A stretch of 64,000 bases of DNA from Plantibacter sp. Leaf314. GTDB lineage: Bacteria; Actinomycetota; Actinomycetes; Actinomycetales; Microbacteriaceae. A program made the position numbers and the translations under genes. Position 1 is the stretch's first letter, and each line of letters starts with the position of its first letter. Below, one piece after another: positions 7,196 to 56,060 of the stretch. The DNA is taken from assembly GCF_001423185.1 (NCBI RefSeq), contig NZ_LMOB01000003.1, forward strand, positions 325,692 through 389,691. The letters are read 5' to 3'. Under the pieces are notes generated by a model. The model made no database searches and was not told where the DNA came from. It saw only the letters and a list, made by a program, of their open reading frames with translations.

Positions 7196-8392
7196 GTGAG
7201 TGAGGCGACAGCGGGCGGAACCGCTCCGACGGGTGGTCAGGCCGCCGGGAGCGGACTCGACTCGGTGCGCCGTCGCAACCTCGGGCGGATCGTCGAGCTG
7301 GTCCACCAGGGCGGGGTACAGTCGCGGTCAGCACTCACGCGGGCGACCGGGCTCAACCGCTCGACGGTCGCCGCGCTCGTGACGGAACTCGCAGCGTCGG
7401 GAGTCGTCACGGAGTCGGTCCCGGTCGGCGGGCAGGGTGTCGGTCGTCCGTCGCCGCTCGTCTCCGCCGGCCCCCGAGCCGTCGCCTTCGCGGCGAACCC
7501 GGAGCTCGACGCGATCACCGTCGCGGCCGTCCGGCTCGGTGGCGAGGTCGTTGAACGCGTGCGTCGCGACGTCGACACGACCCCGACGGCAGGCGAGGCG
7601 ACGGCGATCATCGCGGAGCTGGTCGCCGACTTGGCCGCACGCCTGCCCGACGACGCGCAGGGTGGGGGCGGGATCGGGCTCGCGGTCCCCGGACTCGTGC
7701 GCGACGCCGATGGGGTCGTCCGGCTCGCGCCGCACCTCGGCTGGGTCGACGAGCCGCTCGTCGAACGGCTGCGTGCCGCGACCGGCCGGGCGGTGTTCGC
7801 GGCGAACGACGCGAGTCTCGGTGCCAGGGCGGAGCGGACCTTCGGGGCCGGCCGAGGCATCGACGACCTCGTCTACCTGAACGGTGGCGCGAGCGGTATC
7901 GGCGGCGGCATCATCGCCGGTGGCCGCCCCGTCGGTGGTGCGCGCGGCTACGCGGGGGAGTTCGGGCACACCTCGGCGACGGCCGCGGGTAACGCGCTCG
8001 AAGACGCCGTCCGCCGTAGTGAGCTGCTCCGCGTCGCCGGGCTCGTCGCCGGGGACGACGCGGTCCTCGAGGCGGCACTCGCCGCCGGTATCGCCGCGGA
8101 TCCGGCCGGGCCGATGCGCGAGGAGGTCGTCCGGCAGGCGAGGACGCTCGGGCGGGCGCTCGCCGGGACGGTCAACATCCTCGACCCCGAGCTCGTCGTC
8201 CTCGGCGGGCATCTCGGGATCGTGCTCGAACTGGCGTCGGAGGAGCTGCACGACGCGGTCCGTGAGCGGGCGCTCGTCCCGCCGTTCGAGGACGTCGCGA
8301 TCGTGCGTGCGGAGCTCGGGCAGGACCTCCTCCTCATCGGTGCGGCGGAACTCGCCTTCGACCGGCTCATCGCGGACCCCGCCGCCTGGTGA
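7196..8392 (+). CDS. ROK family transcriptional regulator lacking the usual zinc motif
   Basis: 398 residues. An N-terminal winged helix-turn-helix (about residues 25-70, with SRSALTRATGLNRSTVAALV) is followed by a GVGRPS linker and a ROK sugar-kinase-like domain with ANDA near the middle, a Gly-rich GASGIGGGIIAGG loop and a Gly-Glu-Phe-Gly-His segment. ROK proteins normally continue from that His into a Cys-x-Cys-Gly-x2-Gly-Cys zinc motif; here the stretch reads FGHTSATAAGNALED with no cysteines, so zinc is probably absent. It starts at GTG 7196 after an AGAGGTGG ribosome site. Likely a sugar-responsive repressor; its targets are not evident. Confidence 0.88.
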   Translation: MSEATAGGTAPTGGQAAGSGLDSVRRRNLGRIVELVHQGGVQSRSALTRATGLNRSTVAALVTELAASGVVTESVPVGGQGVGRPSPLVSAGPRAVAFAANPELDAITVAAVRLGGEVVERVRRDVDTTPTAGEATAIIAELVADLAARLPDDAQGGGGIGLAVPGLVRDADGVVRLAPHLGWVDEPLVERLRAATGRAVFAANDASLGARAERTFGAGRGIDDLVYLNGGASGIGGGIIAGGRPVGGARGYAGEFGHTSATAAGNALEDAVRRSELLRVAGLVAGDDAVLEAALAAGIAADPAGPMREEVVRQARTLGRALAGTVNILDPELVVLGGHLGIVLELASEELHDAVRERALVPPFEDVAIVRAELGQDLLLIGAAELAFDRLIADPAAW

Positions 8393-8401
8393 GTCCGTCC
8401 G

Positions 8402-8566
8402 CCGGCGCGGTGCGCTGACGTGAGACGTCCCCACCCGGCGTCAGCGCGGTGCGCTGGCATGACTCTGCGGGCATCGGCGCGACCGCGGGCTGAGCGCGTG
8501 AGCGCGGGTCTCTGGAGGGGCGCGCCCACGCGTGTGAGCCGCGCTCGCGTCAGCGCACCGCGCTGG
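8402..8566. repeat. Intergenic inverted-repeat element, copy A
   Basis: Left-end sequence GCGCGGTGCGCTGACG at 8405-8420 is repeated as GTCAGCGCGGTGCGCTGGC at 8440-8458. The right end CGTCAGCGCACCGCGCTGG is at 8548-8566. Internal blocks GAGGGGCGCGC and GAGCCGCGCTCGCGTCAGC are shared with copies B to F. It sits between the convergent ROK and LacI genes and contains no plausible coding region. Confidence 0.85.
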
Positions 8567-8598
8567 CGCCAGTCGCCAGGCACCACCGCCACCCGGGG

Positions 8599-9618
8599 TC
8601 AGAAGGCCGGGGGACCCGCGGACTTCCGCACGATGAGTTCGGGCTCGATCGTGCCCCGGTAGCCGACGGCGTCGACCTCGAGATTGCCGAGCAGATGCGC
8701 GACGCAGCGCCGCCCCAGCTCGTCGAAGTCCTGACGCACCGTCGTGAGCGGCGGCCAGAAGTGCGACGCCTCGGGGATGTCGTCGAACCCCACGATCGAC
8801 ACGTCCCGCGGCACGTCGTAGCCCTCGTCGCGGATCGCGTGGATGAGCCCGAGCGCCATCTGGTCGTTCGAGGAGAAGATCGCCGTGAAGTCGCGCACCC
8901 GCATGAGTTCGATGCCGGCGCGATACCCGAAGTCGGCCGTCCAGTCGCCGAGGATCGGCGCCGTCGTCGGCACGTCCTGCGCGCTCATCTCCGCGAGGAA
9001 CCCACGCATGCGCGCCTCCGCCTCGATCCAGTCCTGCGGACCGGCGAGGTGGTAGATGTTCCGATGCCCGAGCTCGATGAGGTGCCGCGTCGCCAAGCGT
9101 CCACCGGCGACCTGGTCGACCCCGATCGAGTGGTCGTCGAGGTCGCCGCCGGACTGCACCGCTACGAAGGGGACCCGGACCTGCAGCTCCTCGATGGCGC
9201 GGAACACCCGGACCTGCGGCGCGATCACCACGATGCCGTCGACCGACTGCGCGAGGAGGTGCTCAACGGCCGCCACGATCGACACCTCGCTGGTGTCGGG
9301 CAGGTTGGAGGTGCTGACGAGGTACCCGGCGTCCTTGCTCGCGTTCTCGATGGCCTGGATCATGCTCGCCGGACCGTACTGGGAGCGCTGGCTGGCGAGC
9401 ACGCCGATCGTCCGCGACCGACTCGTCACGAGGGCTCTGGCCGCCCGGTTCGGGCGGTAGTTGACCTCGTCCATGACGGCGAGCACGCGGTCGCGCGTGG
9501 AGTCGCGGATGCTCGGATGGTTGTTCAGCACTCGGGACACGGTCTGGTGGGAGACCCCGGCCAGGCGCGCGACATCGCGGATATTGGGGGCTCGCCCCCG
9601 TTCGGCGTCGTCGCTCAC
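8599..9618 (-). CDS. LacI family regulator, probable repressor of the ChvE-type sugar importer
   Basis: 339 residues: an N-terminal LacI helix-turn-helix (IRDVARLAGVSHQTVSRVLN, about residues 12-31), a hinge helix (YRPNRAARALV), then a periplasmic-binding-protein-like sugar-sensing domain ending with the typical GFDDIPEA and VRQD segments. Its own promoter carries an ATGTG-N6-CACAT site (9636-9651). A near-identical site lies downstream of the promoter of the importer operon at 11285, so it probably represses itself and the importer until arabinose or a related sugar binds. A serine hydrolase gene lies between. Operator matching is by eye; the effector is inferred. Confidence 0.9.
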   Translation of the reverse strand: MSDDAERGRAPNIRDVARLAGVSHQTVSRVLNNHPSIRDSTRDRVLAVMDEVNYRPNRAARALVTSRSRTIGVLASQRSQYGPASMIQAIENASKDAGYLVSTSNLPDTSEVSIVAAVEHLLAQSVDGIVVIAPQVRVFRAIEELQVRVPFVAVQSGGDLDDHSIGVDQVAGGRLATRHLIELGHRNIYHLAGPQDWIEAEARMRGFLAEMSAQDVPTTAPILGDWTADFGYRAGIELMRVRDFTAIFSSNDQMALGLIHAIRDEGYDVPRDVSIVGFDDIPEASHFWPPLTTVRQDFDELGRRCVAHLLGNLEVDAVGYRGTIEPELIVRKSAGPPAF

Positions 9619-30522: not shown

Positions 30523-30540
30523 CGCATCTCTTGTGCTGCG

Positions 30541-30706
30541 CCAGCGCGGTGCGCTGACGCGAGCGCGGGGCTACGGCTCGAGCGCGGTGCTCCGGAGGGG
30601 CGCGCTCACCGCGCTGACCCGCGCCGGCGCCGATCCGGGTGTGCTCGCGCCACCGCACCGCGCTGGCGCCGGTTTCGGTGTGGTCGCGTCGCCGCACCGC
30701 GCTGGA
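30541..30706. repeat. Intergenic inverted-repeat element, copy B
   Basis: Left end CCAGCGCGGTGCGCTGACG at 30541-30559. Two right-end copies follow: CACCGCACCGCGCTGGC (about 30650-30666) and CGCCGCACCGCGCTGGA (about 30689-30705). The internal CTCCGGAGGGGCGCGCTCAC block is shared with other copies. It lies between convergent genes. Confidence 0.85.
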
Positions 30707-30745
30707 GTCCCTGGCTGGACCGTGGGCTCGGGCGACGACCCCCGC

Positions 30746-32103: not shown

Positions 32104-32230
32104 GTCAGCGCGGTGCGCCGGCCCGAAACCGACCGCACCGGCGCGAGCGCGTGGCTCCGGCGTGAGCGCACCCCTCCGGAGGGTCGCGCTCACGCCACAG
32201 GCCCGCGCTCGGTCCAGCGCACCGCGCTGG
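32104..32230. repeat. Intergenic inverted-repeat element, copy C
   Basis: Left end GTCAGCGCGGTGCGCCGG (32104-32121), right end TCCAGCGCACCGCGCTGG (32213-32230), with CCCCTCCGGAGGGTCGCGCTCACGC-like core between them. It lies between two genes in the same direction. Confidence 0.82.
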
Positions 32231-32318
32231 CGACGGCCACCATCCGCAGGCGGGTCACGCCGGGGGCGACGCCGGACGGGTAGTCTGCTGACAGCTGAGC
32301 CGGGCCGGGAGGAGACGC

Positions 32319-33392
32319 GTGTCGATCACGATGCATGACGTCGCCGCGCGCGCCGGTGTCTCCATCAAGACCGTCTCGAACGTCGTCAACGACTACCCCT
32401 ACGTCAGCGACGCGACACGCTCCAAGGTGGAGCAGGCGATCGCCGAACTCGGCTACCGGCCGAACCTCTCCGCCCGCAGCCTGCGTTCCGGTCGCTCGGG
32501 CGTCATCAGCCTCATCATCCCCGACCTCCGCAACGCCTACTTCGCCGAACTCGCGGATGCGGTCATGCGCCAGGCGCGGGCGCGCGGGCTCTCGGTCCTC
32601 ATCGAGCAGGTCGCCGGTGGTCGCGACGTCGAACTCGAGATCCTCCGCGGCCCCCGCATGCAGCTCGTCGACGGCATCCTCTACAGCCCGCTCAGCCTCG
32701 ACCGCGAGGACAGCGCCCTCCTCCCCGACGGGCCGATGGTGGTGCTCGGCGAGCAGGTCTTCGACGGCGAGCGCGACCACGTGACCATGGCGAACGTCGA
32801 CGGCGCCCGCGCGGCGACCGAACACCTGCTCGCCCTGGGGCGGCGCCGGATCGTCGCCCTCGGCACCGACCCCCACGACACCCTCGGGCCCGCGGAGCTG
32901 CGGCTGCAGGGCTACCGGGAGGCGCTCGCCGCGGCGGGCATCGAGGCCGACCCGGACTACGTCAGCACGGTCGTCAGCTGGCACCGGAGCGACGGCGCGA
33001 ACGCCATGCGTGAGGTCATCGCCTCGGGGATCCCGTTCGACGGGGTCGTGGCGTTCAACGACGCGATGGCGCTCGGCGCGATGCGGGTGCTGCAGGACGC
33101 CGGGCGGCGGATCCCCGAGGACGTCGCGATCATCGGGTTCGACGACCTCGACGAGACGCGCTACGCCCTGCCGGCCCTGTCCACGGTCGACATCGGCCGC
33201 GAGGAGATCGCCGAGCGCGCGGTCGAGCTGCTCATCGAGCGGATCGGTGAGACGGGCGAGCCGCAGGCACCGCGCGCGGTCGTCAGTGGCTTCCGCGTGG
33301 TGCCGCGGGAGTCGACGGCGCCGAGGGGCGGGGCGACGACGTCCGCGACGGACGTGGCCGGCGGCCGGAGCGGGATCCCTTCAACGTTGTAG
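32319..33392 (+). CDS. LacI family regulator, first of a tandem pair
   Basis: 357 residues. Helix-turn-helix HDVAARAGVSIKTVSNVVND, hinge YRPNLSARSLRSGRSG, then the sugar-binding domain with PDLRNAYFAELADAVM, VAFNDAMALGAMRVL and GFDDLDETRYALPALST. It is highly similar along its length to the next gene, with a nearly identical recognition helix (KTVSNVVNDYP), so both probably read CAACGTTG sites. Start GTG 32319 after GGGAGGAG; a TAGTCT -10 is at 32281-32286. The last 25 residues are low-complexity and contain the operator for the next gene. Likely arabinose or arabino-oligosaccharide responsive (inference from targets). Confidence 0.92.
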   Translation: MSITMHDVAARAGVSIKTVSNVVNDYPYVSDATRSKVEQAIAELGYRPNLSARSLRSGRSGVISLIIPDLRNAYFAELADAVMRQARARGLSVLIEQVAGGRDVELEILRGPRMQLVDGILYSPLSLDREDSALLPDGPMVVLGEQVFDGERDHVTMANVDGARAATEHLLALGRRRIVALGTDPHDTLGPAELRLQGYREALAAAGIEADPDYVSTVVSWHRSDGANAMREVIASGIPFDGVVAFNDAMALGAMRVLQDAGRRIPEDVAIIGFDDLDETRYALPALSTVDIGREEIAERAVELLIERIGETGEPQAPRAVVSGFRVVPRESTAPRGGATTSATDVAGGRSGIPSTL

Positions 33393-33435: not shown

Positions 33436-34452
33436 ATGGCGACCACCCTGCACGACGTGGCGAAGCTCGCCGGTGTCTCCGCCAAGACCGTCTCGAACGT
33501 CGTCAACGACTACCCGCACATCAAGGCGGCGACGAAGGAGCGGGTGCTCGCCGCGATCGCGGAACTCGGCTACCGGCCGAACCTCTCCGCCCGTGGTCTC
33601 CGCTCCGGTCGCTCCGGCGTGATCAGCCTCATCGTCCCCGACCTCCGCAACGCGTACTTCGCCGAGCTCGCCGACGCCGTCATGCGCGCGGCCGCCCGTC
33701 GCGGCCTGTCCCTGCTCATCGAGCAGAGCGGTGGAGGCCTGGCGCGCGAGGCGGACCTGCTGCGCGGGGCCCGGCTGCGGGCCGTCGACGGTGTCCTCTA
33801 CAGCGCGTTGCAGCTGAGCGACGACGACCTGGCGGTCATCGAGGACGTCTCCATCCCGATGGTGCTGCTGGGGGAGCGGATCTTCAACGCGCCGAACGAC
33901 CACGTCACCATGCGCAACACCGAGGGGGCCCGGGCCGCGACGGAGCACCTCCTGTCGATCGGGTGTCGGCGGGTCGTCGCGTTCGGCGCCCACCGCGGCG
34001 ACCTGGTCAGCTCGGCCAGTCTCCGCTTCGCCGGCTATCGCGCCGCACTCGAGGCCGCCGGTCTGCCCGTCGCCCCCGAGCTCGTGCGCGACGTCGCGGT
34101 CTGGCACCGCTTCGACGGTGCGGTCGCGATGCGGGAGATGCTCGACGAGGGCCTGCGGTTCGACGGGATCGTGGCGTTCAACGACGCTCTCGCCCTCGGA
34201 GCGATCCGGGTCCTCGCCGAGCGCGGGATCCGCATGCCGGAGGAGGTCGCCGTCATCGGCTTCGACGACATCGACGAGGGCCGGTACTCCCTGCCGTCGC
34301 TGTCCACGATCGCGCCCGGCCGCGAGCAGATCGCGTCCACCGCCGTCGACCTCCTGGTGGAGCGCATCGAATCGGCCGACGACGACGCACGGCCCGCTCG
34401 CCGGGTGTACGCCGACTTCCAGCTCGTCCAACGCGAGTCGACCACCCGCTGA
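33436..34452 (+). CDS. LacI family regulator, second of a tandem pair (AraR-like candidate)
   Basis: 338 residues. Helix-turn-helix LHDVAKLAGVSAKTVSNVVN, hinge YRPNLSARGLRSGRSG, and a sensing domain with IVAFNDALALGAIRVLAERG and GFDDIDEGRYSLPSLST. It lies directly upstream of the arabinofuranosidase gene, whose promoter carries two matching sites, so it is the best candidate repressor for the arabinofuranosidase and araBDA. Start ATG 33436 after GGAGGAT. The frame is open upstream but there it overlaps the first LacI gene in another frame. Confidence 0.92.
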   Translation: MATTLHDVAKLAGVSAKTVSNVVNDYPHIKAATKERVLAAIAELGYRPNLSARGLRSGRSGVISLIVPDLRNAYFAELADAVMRAAARRGLSLLIEQSGGGLAREADLLRGARLRAVDGVLYSALQLSDDDLAVIEDVSIPMVLLGERIFNAPNDHVTMRNTEGARAATEHLLSIGCRRVVAFGAHRGDLVSSASLRFAGYRAALEAAGLPVAPELVRDVAVWHRFDGAVAMREMLDEGLRFDGIVAFNDALALGAIRVLAERGIRMPEEVAVIGFDDIDEGRYSLPSLSTIAPGREQIASTAVDLLVERIESADDDARPARRVYADFQLVQRESTTR

Positions 34453-36262: not shown

Positions 36263-36859
36263 ATGACGGCTCGGGGATCCTACGCGAAGGGCGTCGCGCG
36301 GCGGGAGGAGATCCTGCGCGTGGCCCTCGCGGTCTTCGCGCGCGAGGGGTATCGGGGCACGTCGTTGCGCGAGGTCGCCCGCGAGGTCGGGGTCAGCCTG
36401 CCCGGGCTCATGCACTACTTCGCATCGAAGGAGCATCTGTTCGCCGCGATCCTGCGGGTCCGCGACGCGGTCGATTCCGAGGAGTTCGCGGCGACCGGGT
36501 CGCAGGACGCGATCGAGGGGCTCGTCGCCGTCATGCGGCACAACAGTGACGTCCCGGGACTCGTGGAGCTCTACCTCACCATGGCCGCCGCGGCGGGTGA
36601 TCCGGCCCACCCGGCCAGGGAGTTCTTCGTCGAGCACGTCGCCGGGGTGCGGCGGAGTCTCGTCGAGGTCGTGCGTGAGCGACAGGCGGAGGGCGTCGTG
36701 CGGGCGGAGCTCGACGCCGAGCACGTGGCGCGGATCATGATCGCCATCGCGGACGGGCTGCAGGTGCAGTGGAGTCTCGATCCGTCGATCGACATGGGTG
36801 GCGACCTCGAGCGCGCCTGGCACCTCCTCGTCCGGGACGACGCCGGCGCTGTGCGCTGA
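36263..36859 (+). CDS. TetR family transcriptional regulator
   Basis: 198 residues. The TetR DNA-binding domain spans about residues 10-60, with FAREGYRGTSLREVAREVGV and LMHYFASKEHLFAAIL. The C-terminal ligand domain is Ala/Val-rich with REFFVEHVAGVRRSLVEVV. It precedes a sugar-transport and epimerase operon whose promoter is crowded with inverted repeats, and it may control it. The last codons and stop are contributed by the intergenic repeat element copy D (CTGTGCGCTGA), so the original C-terminus may have differed. Confidence 0.9.
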   Translation: MTARGSYAKGVARREEILRVALAVFAREGYRGTSLREVAREVGVSLPGLMHYFASKEHLFAAILRVRDAVDSEEFAATGSQDAIEGLVAVMRHNSDVPGLVELYLTMAAAAGDPAHPAREFFVEHVAGVRRSLVEVVRERQAEGVVRAELDAEHVARIMIAIADGLQVQWSLDPSIDMGGDLERAWHLLVRDDAGAVR

Positions 36860-37006
36860 CGCGAGCGCGGGGCTCCGGCGCGTGAGTGTTCGGGACGACG
36901 CTGGCGCGGTGCGCTGACGCGAGCGCACCCCACCTGCGCGAGCGCGGGTCTTCGGAGGGGCGCGCTCACCTCCATGACCCGCGCTCGCGTCAGCGCACCG
37001 CGCCGG
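36842..37006. repeat. Intergenic inverted-repeat element, copy D (overlaps TetR stop)
   Basis: Left end GCCGGCGCTGTGCGCTGACG (36842-36861) includes the TetR stop. A second left end CTGGCGCGGTGCGCTGACG is at 36901-36919 and the right end CGTCAGCGCACCGCGCCGG at 36988-37006. The tandem left ends resemble copy A. Confidence 0.85.
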
Positions 37007-48432: not shown

Positions 48433-48595
48433 TCCCGCGGGCGCCTCGCACGGCGTCCGGTCGCCCCGCCGATCGGCCCGTCGCGCTCGCCAGATCCGGG
48501 TGATCGCCCTATCAGGGACGATCGCCCGGGTCCAGCCGCGGGATGTGGCCCGGAGTGGTGCGAAACTGGACGCATCGACGACGCGAGGAGGTCGC

Positions 48596-48640
48596 ATGCG
48601 CGCACCGATGGAACCCCGACACCAGAACCGGATCGCATGA
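48596..48640 (+). CDS. 14-residue leader peptide coupled to the acyl-CoA dehydrogenase-like gene
   Basis: ATG 48596 follows a strong GAGGAGG ribosome site. The frame encodes MRAPMEPRHQNRIA and stops in an ATGA overlap with the next start at 48637, which has no ribosome site of its own. The arrangement suggests translational coupling or a leader-peptide switch. Too short for homology. Confidence 0.5.
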   Translation: MRAPMEPRHQNRIA

Positions 48641-53059: not shown

Positions 53060-53551
53060 GTGCTCGACGACCTCCTGATCCGCCCGTACCGCGACACCGA
53101 TGCCCGAGCGACCCGAGCAATCTTCGAACGCGCGGTGCGGGTGACCGCTGCCGCCCACTACACGGCCGAACAACGCACCGCATGGGTGCCGGACGACCCG
53201 CTGGCTGTGGTGCTCGACGACTGGGCCGCTCGACGTGCCGCGGTGACGACGTGGGTCGCTGTGATCGACGACTCGGTGGTCGGATTCACCGACTTGGACG
53301 TCGAGACCGGCTACCTCGACATGCTGTTCGTCGATCCGGACGCCGGACGACGCGGCGTCGGTTCCGCGCTCATCCGTCAGGTGCTCGACGAAGCCCGGGC
53401 GGTGGGGCTCCGGGAGGTGACCGTGCAGGCGAGTCGGACGGCGCAGCCGGTGTTCGAGCGTCACGGCTTCGTCGTGGTCCGTGAGCAGCGGGTCGAGCGT
53501 CGTGGAGTGCTCATCGAGAACGCCGCGATGCGGGTGGTCCTCGACGCGTGA
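53060..53551 (+). CDS. GNAT family N-acetyltransferase
   Basis: 163 residues. LLIRPYRDTDARATRAIFERAV at the start, VVGFTDLDVETGYLDMLFVDPDAGRRGVGSALI in the core with the acetyl-CoA loop RRGVGS, and VQASRTAQPVFERHGFVVVREQ at the end. Resembles the YafP/phosphinothricin-type putative acetyltransferases. Start GTG supported by the leaderless -10. Confidence 0.9.
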   Translation: MLDDLLIRPYRDTDARATRAIFERAVRVTAAAHYTAEQRTAWVPDDPLAVVLDDWAARRAAVTTWVAVIDDSVVGFTDLDVETGYLDMLFVDPDAGRRGVGSALIRQVLDEARAVGLREVTVQASRTAQPVFERHGFVVVREQRVERRGVLIENAAMRVVLDA

Positions 53552-53567
53552 GATCGGTGCGATCGGC

Positions 53568-53655
53568 GTGAGCGCGGGTCGCACGCTTGGGCGCGGCCCT
53601 CTGGAGACCCGCGCCCACGCGTATGACCCGCGCTCACGTCAGCGCACCGCGCTGG
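53568..53655. repeat. Intergenic inverted-repeat element, copy E (left end lost)
   Basis: The core TGGAGACCCGCGCCCACGCG and the right end CGTCAGCGCACCGCGCTGG (53637-53655) are kept; the left end is degenerate. Between convergent genes, 8 bp from the MATE stop. Confidence 0.8.
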
Positions 53656-53662
53656 CAGTCAG

Positions 53663-55932: not shown

Positions 55933-56060
55933 GCCAGCGCGGTGCGCTGACGCGAACGGTGACCGTTCGGCCTGGACGCGGGTCTGAGCCGCGGGCGCAC
56001 CCCTCCGGAGACCCGCGCTCACGCGTGTGACCCGCGCTCACGTCAGCGCACCGCGCTGGC
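55933..56060. repeat. Intergenic inverted-repeat element, copy F (complete, perfect ends)
   Basis: The cleanest copy: GCCAGCGCGGTGCGCTGACG (55933-55952) and its exact inverse CGTCAGCGCACCGCGCTGGC (56041-56060), 128 bp end to end. The core has GGGTCTGAGCCGCGG and CTCCGGAGACCCGCGCTCACG blocks. It lies between the MarR gene and the tRNA-Ser terminator. Confidence 0.9.

Follow-up and report, generated by a model that had tools for sequence, protein, structure and literature searches.

A repeated composite palindrome in the Plantibacter genome

The stretch of DNA analysed here (the window, 64,000 nucleotides of the genome of Plantibacter sp. Leaf314, designated G000) contains six copies of a short repeat, and the proposal of an earlier note that these share a palindromic design is borne out by a 128-bp composite palindrome common to all six loci. 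As had also been claimed, every copy lies between gene calls and three of them in convergent gaps; these three are A, B and E, and copies C, D and F are placed between tandem genes. The gene calls come from a home-made caller and may err. The copies, and a seventh site at which relatives carry the element, are as follows.

Copy A, 8402..8567, minus strand: complete element carrying an additional left end, flanked by the convergent genes 7196-8392 (+) and 8599-9618 (-); in 7/7 Plantibacter genomes.
Copy B, 30540..30667, plus strand: full element, with a further right end at about 30682-30712, between convergent genes; in 6/7 genomes, absent in G003.
Copy C, 32104..32231, minus strand: complete element in a tandem-gene gap, lying 32 nt beyond the upstream stop codon; in 7/7 genomes.
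Copy D, 36842..37006, plus strand: element whose extra left end is 58 bp out, in a gap between tandem genes; in 7/7 genomes.
Copy E, 53547..53656, minus strand: element that has lost its left end and occupies the whole gap between two convergent genes; full form in congeners, site in 7/7 genomes.
Copy F, 55933..56060, minus strand: element of 128 bp, 56 nt before the next gene call; in 7/7 genomes.
Site X, 48433..48636, no strand: element-free gap in the window genome and G004; element in five congeners.

Copy F has perfect 20-bp inverted ends, and the departures from this form described earlier hold as well, with the extra left ends lying 39 bp outside the core in A (dyads at 8405 and 8444) and further out in D (36846 and 36904), the extra right end 39 bp out in B (30643 and 30682), and the left end missing from E. 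Within the window, exact 19-mer left ends are found at 30541 and 55934 and exact right ends of the same length at 8548, 53637 and 56041; the remaining ends were matched by the 13-mer dyad with 0–1 mismatch. Copy E overlaps the upstream gene call by 5 nt, and copy F lies 69 nt beyond the 3′ end of a minus-strand tRNA gene. In the segment 32309-34452 the neighbouring genes 32319-33392 and 33436-34452 are tandem paralogues, 71–89% alike in blocks, and are presumably LacI-type regulators.

The blocks of the element, in consensus orientation, are GCCAGCGCGGTGCGCTGACG, TGAGCGCGGGTC, CGTGAGCGCGGGTCTCCGGAGGGGCGCGCTCACG, GACCCGCGCTCACGCCGATTC and CTCGCGTCAGCGCACCGCGCTGGC; about 7 nt of linker separate the second from the third and about 6 nt the third from the fourth, and a variable stretch precedes the last. 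Each end is palindromic in itself, forming the dyad CAGCGC-GGT-GCGCTG, which CGTC adjoins on the inward side; expressed as a CGTC-tagged 15-bp dyad the consensus is CGTC-AGCGC-ACC-GCGCT-GG, present as two inverted copies per element with the tags inward, and the stem is 5–6 bp, the loop 3 and the tail GG(C). Between these dyads lie the inner arms, GAGCGCG / CGCGCTC, and the CTCCGGAG centre, and the linkers that join the parts drift in sequence. The central GGGTC-TCCGGA-GGGGC block is asymmetric and, as read from the consensus, is found either way round with respect to the rest of the element. Forms of 106–108 bp arise where copies are without the variable module of about 20 nt, and across the family some copies bear an additional end roughly 39 bp further out. 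Among 73 full-length copies the dyad is exact in 66 left ends and in 40 right ends, the right end thus being the looser; similarly, the tagged sequence CGTCAGCGC is intact in 32/73 right ends and its complement GCGCTGACG in 63/73 left ends. The three-base loop of the end dyad is flipped (GGT/ACC) in 3/73 copies (G004_7024, which is site A of G004, L064:3286-3411 and L066:3194-3320), and at both ends in the first of these, as if the end dyads could invert.

Taxonomic range and genomic placement

The end 13-mer SCGCGGTGCGCTG occurs 24 + 21 times in the window genome against 1 + 1 for the reversed control, and BLAST with copy F as the query returns 91 matches at E up to 1. A profile built from 32 copies and run over the fetched neighbourhoods, with hits merged, places the family at 24 intergenic loci in this 3.96-Mb genome. 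The earlier note would have given up the family had its copies numbered below about ten and all been orthologous in position; the number is well above this, although many of the positions are indeed orthologous.

Among the genomes searched the family is specific to the plant-associated Plantibacter. A gapped exact pattern applied to one genome per species over 84,980 species yields 18 stretches, all in four Plantibacter genomes, and a profile of 38 copies detects the family in 7/398 Microbacteriaceae genomes, comprising 7/7 Plantibacter and 0/391 others, under stricter filters and with eight scored candidates per genome, such that weak relatives could escape. Two weak matches in an order-level relative (G033) are pieces of 27–34 nt that look coding on reading, and were taken as chance. 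Phages and plasmids gave no match at the sensitivities used, and viral contigs no exact 19-mer. The earlier note knew of no named family with these ends. At the gathering score of Rfam 15 the window contains only a tRNA and a small SRP RNA and the element is unmatched; nor did a search of open-licence PMC papers yield a description of such a repeat in Plantibacter or Microbacteriaceae. End dyads in the window clade are about half as numerous (26 + 23 in G000, 22 + 21 in G004) as in the congeners other than G005 and G006 (48 + 47, 61 + 58 and 51 + 49).

The loci are concentrated at gene ends. Convergent gaps hold 12/24 loci in G000 against 18% expected by intergenic length (P 4e-4) and 15/38 in G003 against 16% (P 5e-4), and divergent gaps are depleted, with 1/24 (P 0.003) and 5/38 (P 0.02), respectively, against 31% expected; loci are common to the two genomes by descent, so these placement tests are not independent. 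One G003 copy, at 371075, is called divergent, yet the alignment puts it after a reading frame ending in TAG. Tandem copies are closer to the upstream stop in 9/11 cases in G000 (P 0.065) and 15/18 in G003 (P 0.0075), and the median distance to the nearest stop codon is 22 nt and 23 nt, respectively. Orientation relative to the upstream gene is mixed, 8 of the 11 tandem copies having the same orientation and 3 the opposite.

On a larger scale, the 38 exact-end clusters of G003:C1 avoid the origin and terminus: 1/38 lies at most 300 kb from the parS cluster (0.764–0.769 Mb), and a 1.32-Mb gap between clusters spans the pole opposite parS. The two largest gaps total 1.89 Mb, which was equalled in 0/20,000 uniform placements, a statistic that was picked after the list was seen and with the origin inferred from parS. 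We also note a 1.2-kb gap without a called gene in G000 (L059:3158-3744, C1 about 1253157-1253743), inside which two elements are separated by an apparent decayed reading frame; G003 has a called gene beside the matching copies, and the ORF list suggests no transposase within the gap.

Descent, constraint and folding

The region orthologous to the window contains seven sites, of which A, C, D, E and F are occupied throughout, B in all genomes except G003, where the site resembles a deletion larger than the element, and X in 5/7. For 44/45 copies of known site the nearest relative in another genome is the ortholog (A and its neighbour A2 being treated as one site), and mean copy identity is 0.86 within sites and 0.76 between sites; copies are therefore not visibly exchanged or renewed. 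Elsewhere, the 36 G003 hits outside the window region include 15 that are crossed by one G000 alignment (element presence in G000 was not confirmed one by one), 12 without a G000 element, and nine that are unplaceable. Eleven of the 12 G003-only sites were inspected, the one at 225970 being left out, and no scars of element ends at the element-free G000 sites beat shuffles at the 5% level (lowest 0.09). Past gain or loss of loci is thus supported by the differences between species, and the vertical descent of the copies speaks against present mobility.

Two signatures of transposition that the earlier note had suggested looking for are missing from the places searched. An exact match of at least 4 nt, as a target duplication would leave, accompanies 6/72 copies and 5/72 in the shifted control, and no Y1/RAYT transposase (PF01797, Y1_Tnp) was detected in any of the 7 Plantibacter genomes at E 0.01, in a search whose controls were positive in 6/14 and in which Y1_Tnp was the sole transposase family. 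Together with the orthologous nearest relatives these results led us to reject active transposition, and current mobility is not supported. Of the earlier description of the repeat as mobile or REP-type, the second half survives, with palindromic CGTC ends, inverted pairs, gene-end location and genus-wide occurrence, and present MITE mobility does not. The best explanation of its history would be that the family was acquired by, or arose on, the Plantibacter stem, and was then inherited vertically with some gain and loss of loci.

The ends of the element are constrained. In cross-clade comparisons at the six shared sites (the window and G004 versus the other five species) the ends are 0.959 identical (1266/1320), compared with 0.765 for the inner part, 0.674 for the flanks and 0.664–0.667 for fourfold sites, the last from the window versus G001, G003 and G005 only; positions opposite a gap number 0 in the ends, 2 in the inner part and 494 in the flanks. 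These estimates are made without the rearranged copies (D and E of the window, site A in G002 and G004) and site X, and count only sites kept in both clades, which favours conserved copies; with rearranged copies retained and gaps scored as differences, the six-site values are 0.88 for ends, 0.73 for the inner part and 0.575 for flanks. With 96% identity in the ends and 67% in flanks and at fourfold sites, differences in the ends are about one-eighth as frequent as at neutral sites (4% versus 33%); the constraint at the six shared sites shows, at the level of sequence comparison, an element held by purifying selection. Block identities run from 0.95 in the left end, 0.96 in the next arm, 0.91 in the central left arm and 0.84 in the centre to 0.78 in the central right arm, 0.77 in the right arm and 0.89 in the right end, with 0.55–0.72 in the linkers and variable stretch; the lowest-conservation blocks are mainly columns unpaired in the model. 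Judged from these alignments, end conservation is of sequence, and more than pairing alone would demand.

The earlier suggestion of a long RNA hairpin stands as far as the predicted fold is concerned, the predicted energy of copy F being -89 kcal/mol for RNA (z -6.3) and -59 kcal/mol for DNA (z -7.3), with 0/200 shuffles as good in either case, but support from covariation is weak. In a sample of 38 rows at <85% identity, taken from 86 full-length hits of which some are one copy in overlapping loci, paired cells amount to 90.5% versus 90.4% in shuffles (147/500 shuffles as high), pairs changed on both sides number 11 versus 7.4 (19/500 as high), and the RNAalifold covariation term is -0.03, so that compensatory RNA evolution is weak. 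The inner helix is often broken, columns 29–30 being unpaired in 13–14/38. A role as a terminator, also raised previously, is made plausible by position; against it, four consecutive T (or A) within 12 nt of the stem occur in 0/18 inspected full-length copies from the genome itself. The variable linker does not behave as a separate hairpin (mean energy -5.11 versus -5.09 ± 0.26 for mononucleotide shuffles of 68 segments).

At two sites an absent element coincides with another hairpin. Site X has an ordinary long stem-loop (48493-48532), with z -3.9 and -2.3 for 108-nt pieces of the gap in the window and G004, whereas such a structure is missing from the matching flank of two carriers, G001 and G003 (z +0.3 and +0.9), and the element-free site B of G003 has a hairpin with z -2.6. 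The idea that other hairpins replace absent elements, hinted at by these two sites, failed at the 11 inspected sites with the element in G003 but not in G000, where 10/11 have no significant substitute and one has z < -2.

Interpretation and relation to known repeats

Classification of the family as a REP/BIME-like repeat is well supported, and we think that it probably functions as an inherited gene-end signal and is not actively jumping. With moderate confidence we favour a REP/BIME-like element domesticated as an orientation-independent 3′-end stem-loop or transcription barrier. Where transcription overran the stop codon, the RNA would fold into an extended stem, which would assist termination or protect the RNA 3′ end; because RNA from either strand would form the stem, the element would work in both orientations and could shield convergent neighbours from one another. 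Gene-end position, use in either orientation and the strong fold all point this way, but weak covariation, the lack of a T-run, the 10/11 empty sites without a substitute and the breaks in the inner helix argue against a simple RNA hairpin. The first three of these make a sequence-reading partner, acting on RNA or DNA, a serious alternative or addition.

The strongest competitor, which we regard as possible but clearly less likely, is a DNA-level site, in which a nucleoid protein, gyrase or some other factor would recognise the dyads and arms as double-stranded DNA, with gene ends being useful or tolerated positions. The conservation of ends and arms as sequence (0.89–0.96) while linkers drift, the weak covariation, the mixed orientation and the uneven distribution along the G003 chromosome are all consistent with this, as is the reported binding of gyrase to E. 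coli REPs (PMC3733652). However, enrichment at gene ends and in convergent gaps is more directly explained by transcript ends, and no partner protein is known. More speculatively, and we consider this doubtful, the two readings might be combined in a transposase-less REP-like repeat domesticated genus-wide, whose dyad ends would form a sequence-specific site for a putative Plantibacter factor that ends transcription (or marks the DNA) at gene ends, chiefly along the chromosome arms that separate the origin region from the terminus region.

It is unlikely that the family is simply a non-autonomous mobile element (MITE or REPIN) that was spread in the past by a putative transposase and is now mostly fixed. 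Terminal inverted repeats, tens of copies, the tandem extra ends and the 12/36 G003 hits without an element at the G000 place would fit such an origin, but target duplications are not above control, Y1_Tnp (the one family searched) is absent, and the copies are vertically inherited with strongly constrained ends. Neutral relics without present function seem very improbable: a missing locus need not be replaced by another hairpin, E has lost an end and B is missing from G003, but the ends, at 0.959 identity where neutral sites have about 0.67 and with almost no gap-opposed positions at the shared sites, are hard to reconcile with neutrality. Ordinary intrinsic terminators that arose independently and are alike by chance would account for gene-end location and a stable fold, but are scarcely credible given an anatomy common to 24 loci, confinement to one genus among those searched, and 18/18 inspected copies without a T-run. 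Integron attC sites were considered and dropped in view of the mixed orientation, no such core motif having been seen.

Whether REP-type repeats serve their host is an old question. The Plantibacter repeats form an actinobacterial, genus-wide, REP-like family with no RAYT in sight and ends at about one-eighth of neutral divergence, and the constrained ends, along with gene gaps that occur in nature both with and without the element, make the question directly testable. The broad features of REPs and BIMEs are present, namely repeated short extragenic palindromes, a preference for 3′ ends and for convergent or unidirectional gaps, and inverted pairs able to form a larger stem-loop. Like E. coli-type REP/BIMEs (GTAG REPs, PMC3733652), the family is a genus-restricted 3′-end mosaic of inverted palindromes in a few tens to hundreds of copies; the E. 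coli type, however, has a GTAG tag and a RAYT, whereas Plantibacter has CGTC, no RAYT that we could find, and a largely fixed unit of 106–128 bp. REPINs (Bertels and Rainey 2011, PMC3116915) are similarly inverted REP doublets predicted as one hairpin, but accompany RAYT transposases, of which none was seen in Plantibacter. The MITEs ERIC, NEMIS and RUP (PMC3733652) share a length of 70–300 bp, terminal inverted repeats, a non-coding nature and proximity to genes, and differ from the Plantibacter repeat in that the latter has no excess of target duplications, self-palindromic ends, and strong cross-species constraint. The available text of the RepRanger paper (PMC12306157) contains no mention of 'actinobacter' or 'RAYT'.

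CGTC-tagged REPs (Di Nocera et al. 2013, PMC3733652) resemble the Plantibacter repeat in having CGTC beside a small palindrome, inverted dimers with spacers of 20–100 bp, and a location near gene 3′ ends and in convergent or unidirectional gaps; they have no dedicated transposase, and in Plantibacter the search for Y1_Tnp likewise gave none. In families 1–4, however, the stem is 8–9 bp, the loop 4–5 and the tail mostly CCA, compared with 5–6, 3 and GG(C) here, and HH dimers with tags outward predominate, whereas the inward tags of Plantibacter correspond to the TT type that is rare for CGTC; in addition, the available part of that source lists five phyla for CGTC repeats, and Actinobacteria are not among its phyla with GTAG or CGTC repeats. 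Because of these differences in stem, loop, tail, dimer type and phylum we file the family as REP/BIME-like and not within CGTC families 1–4, although by tag, dimer habit, gene-end location and apparent lack of a dedicated transposase, CGTC-tagged REPs are the nearest of the described kinds.
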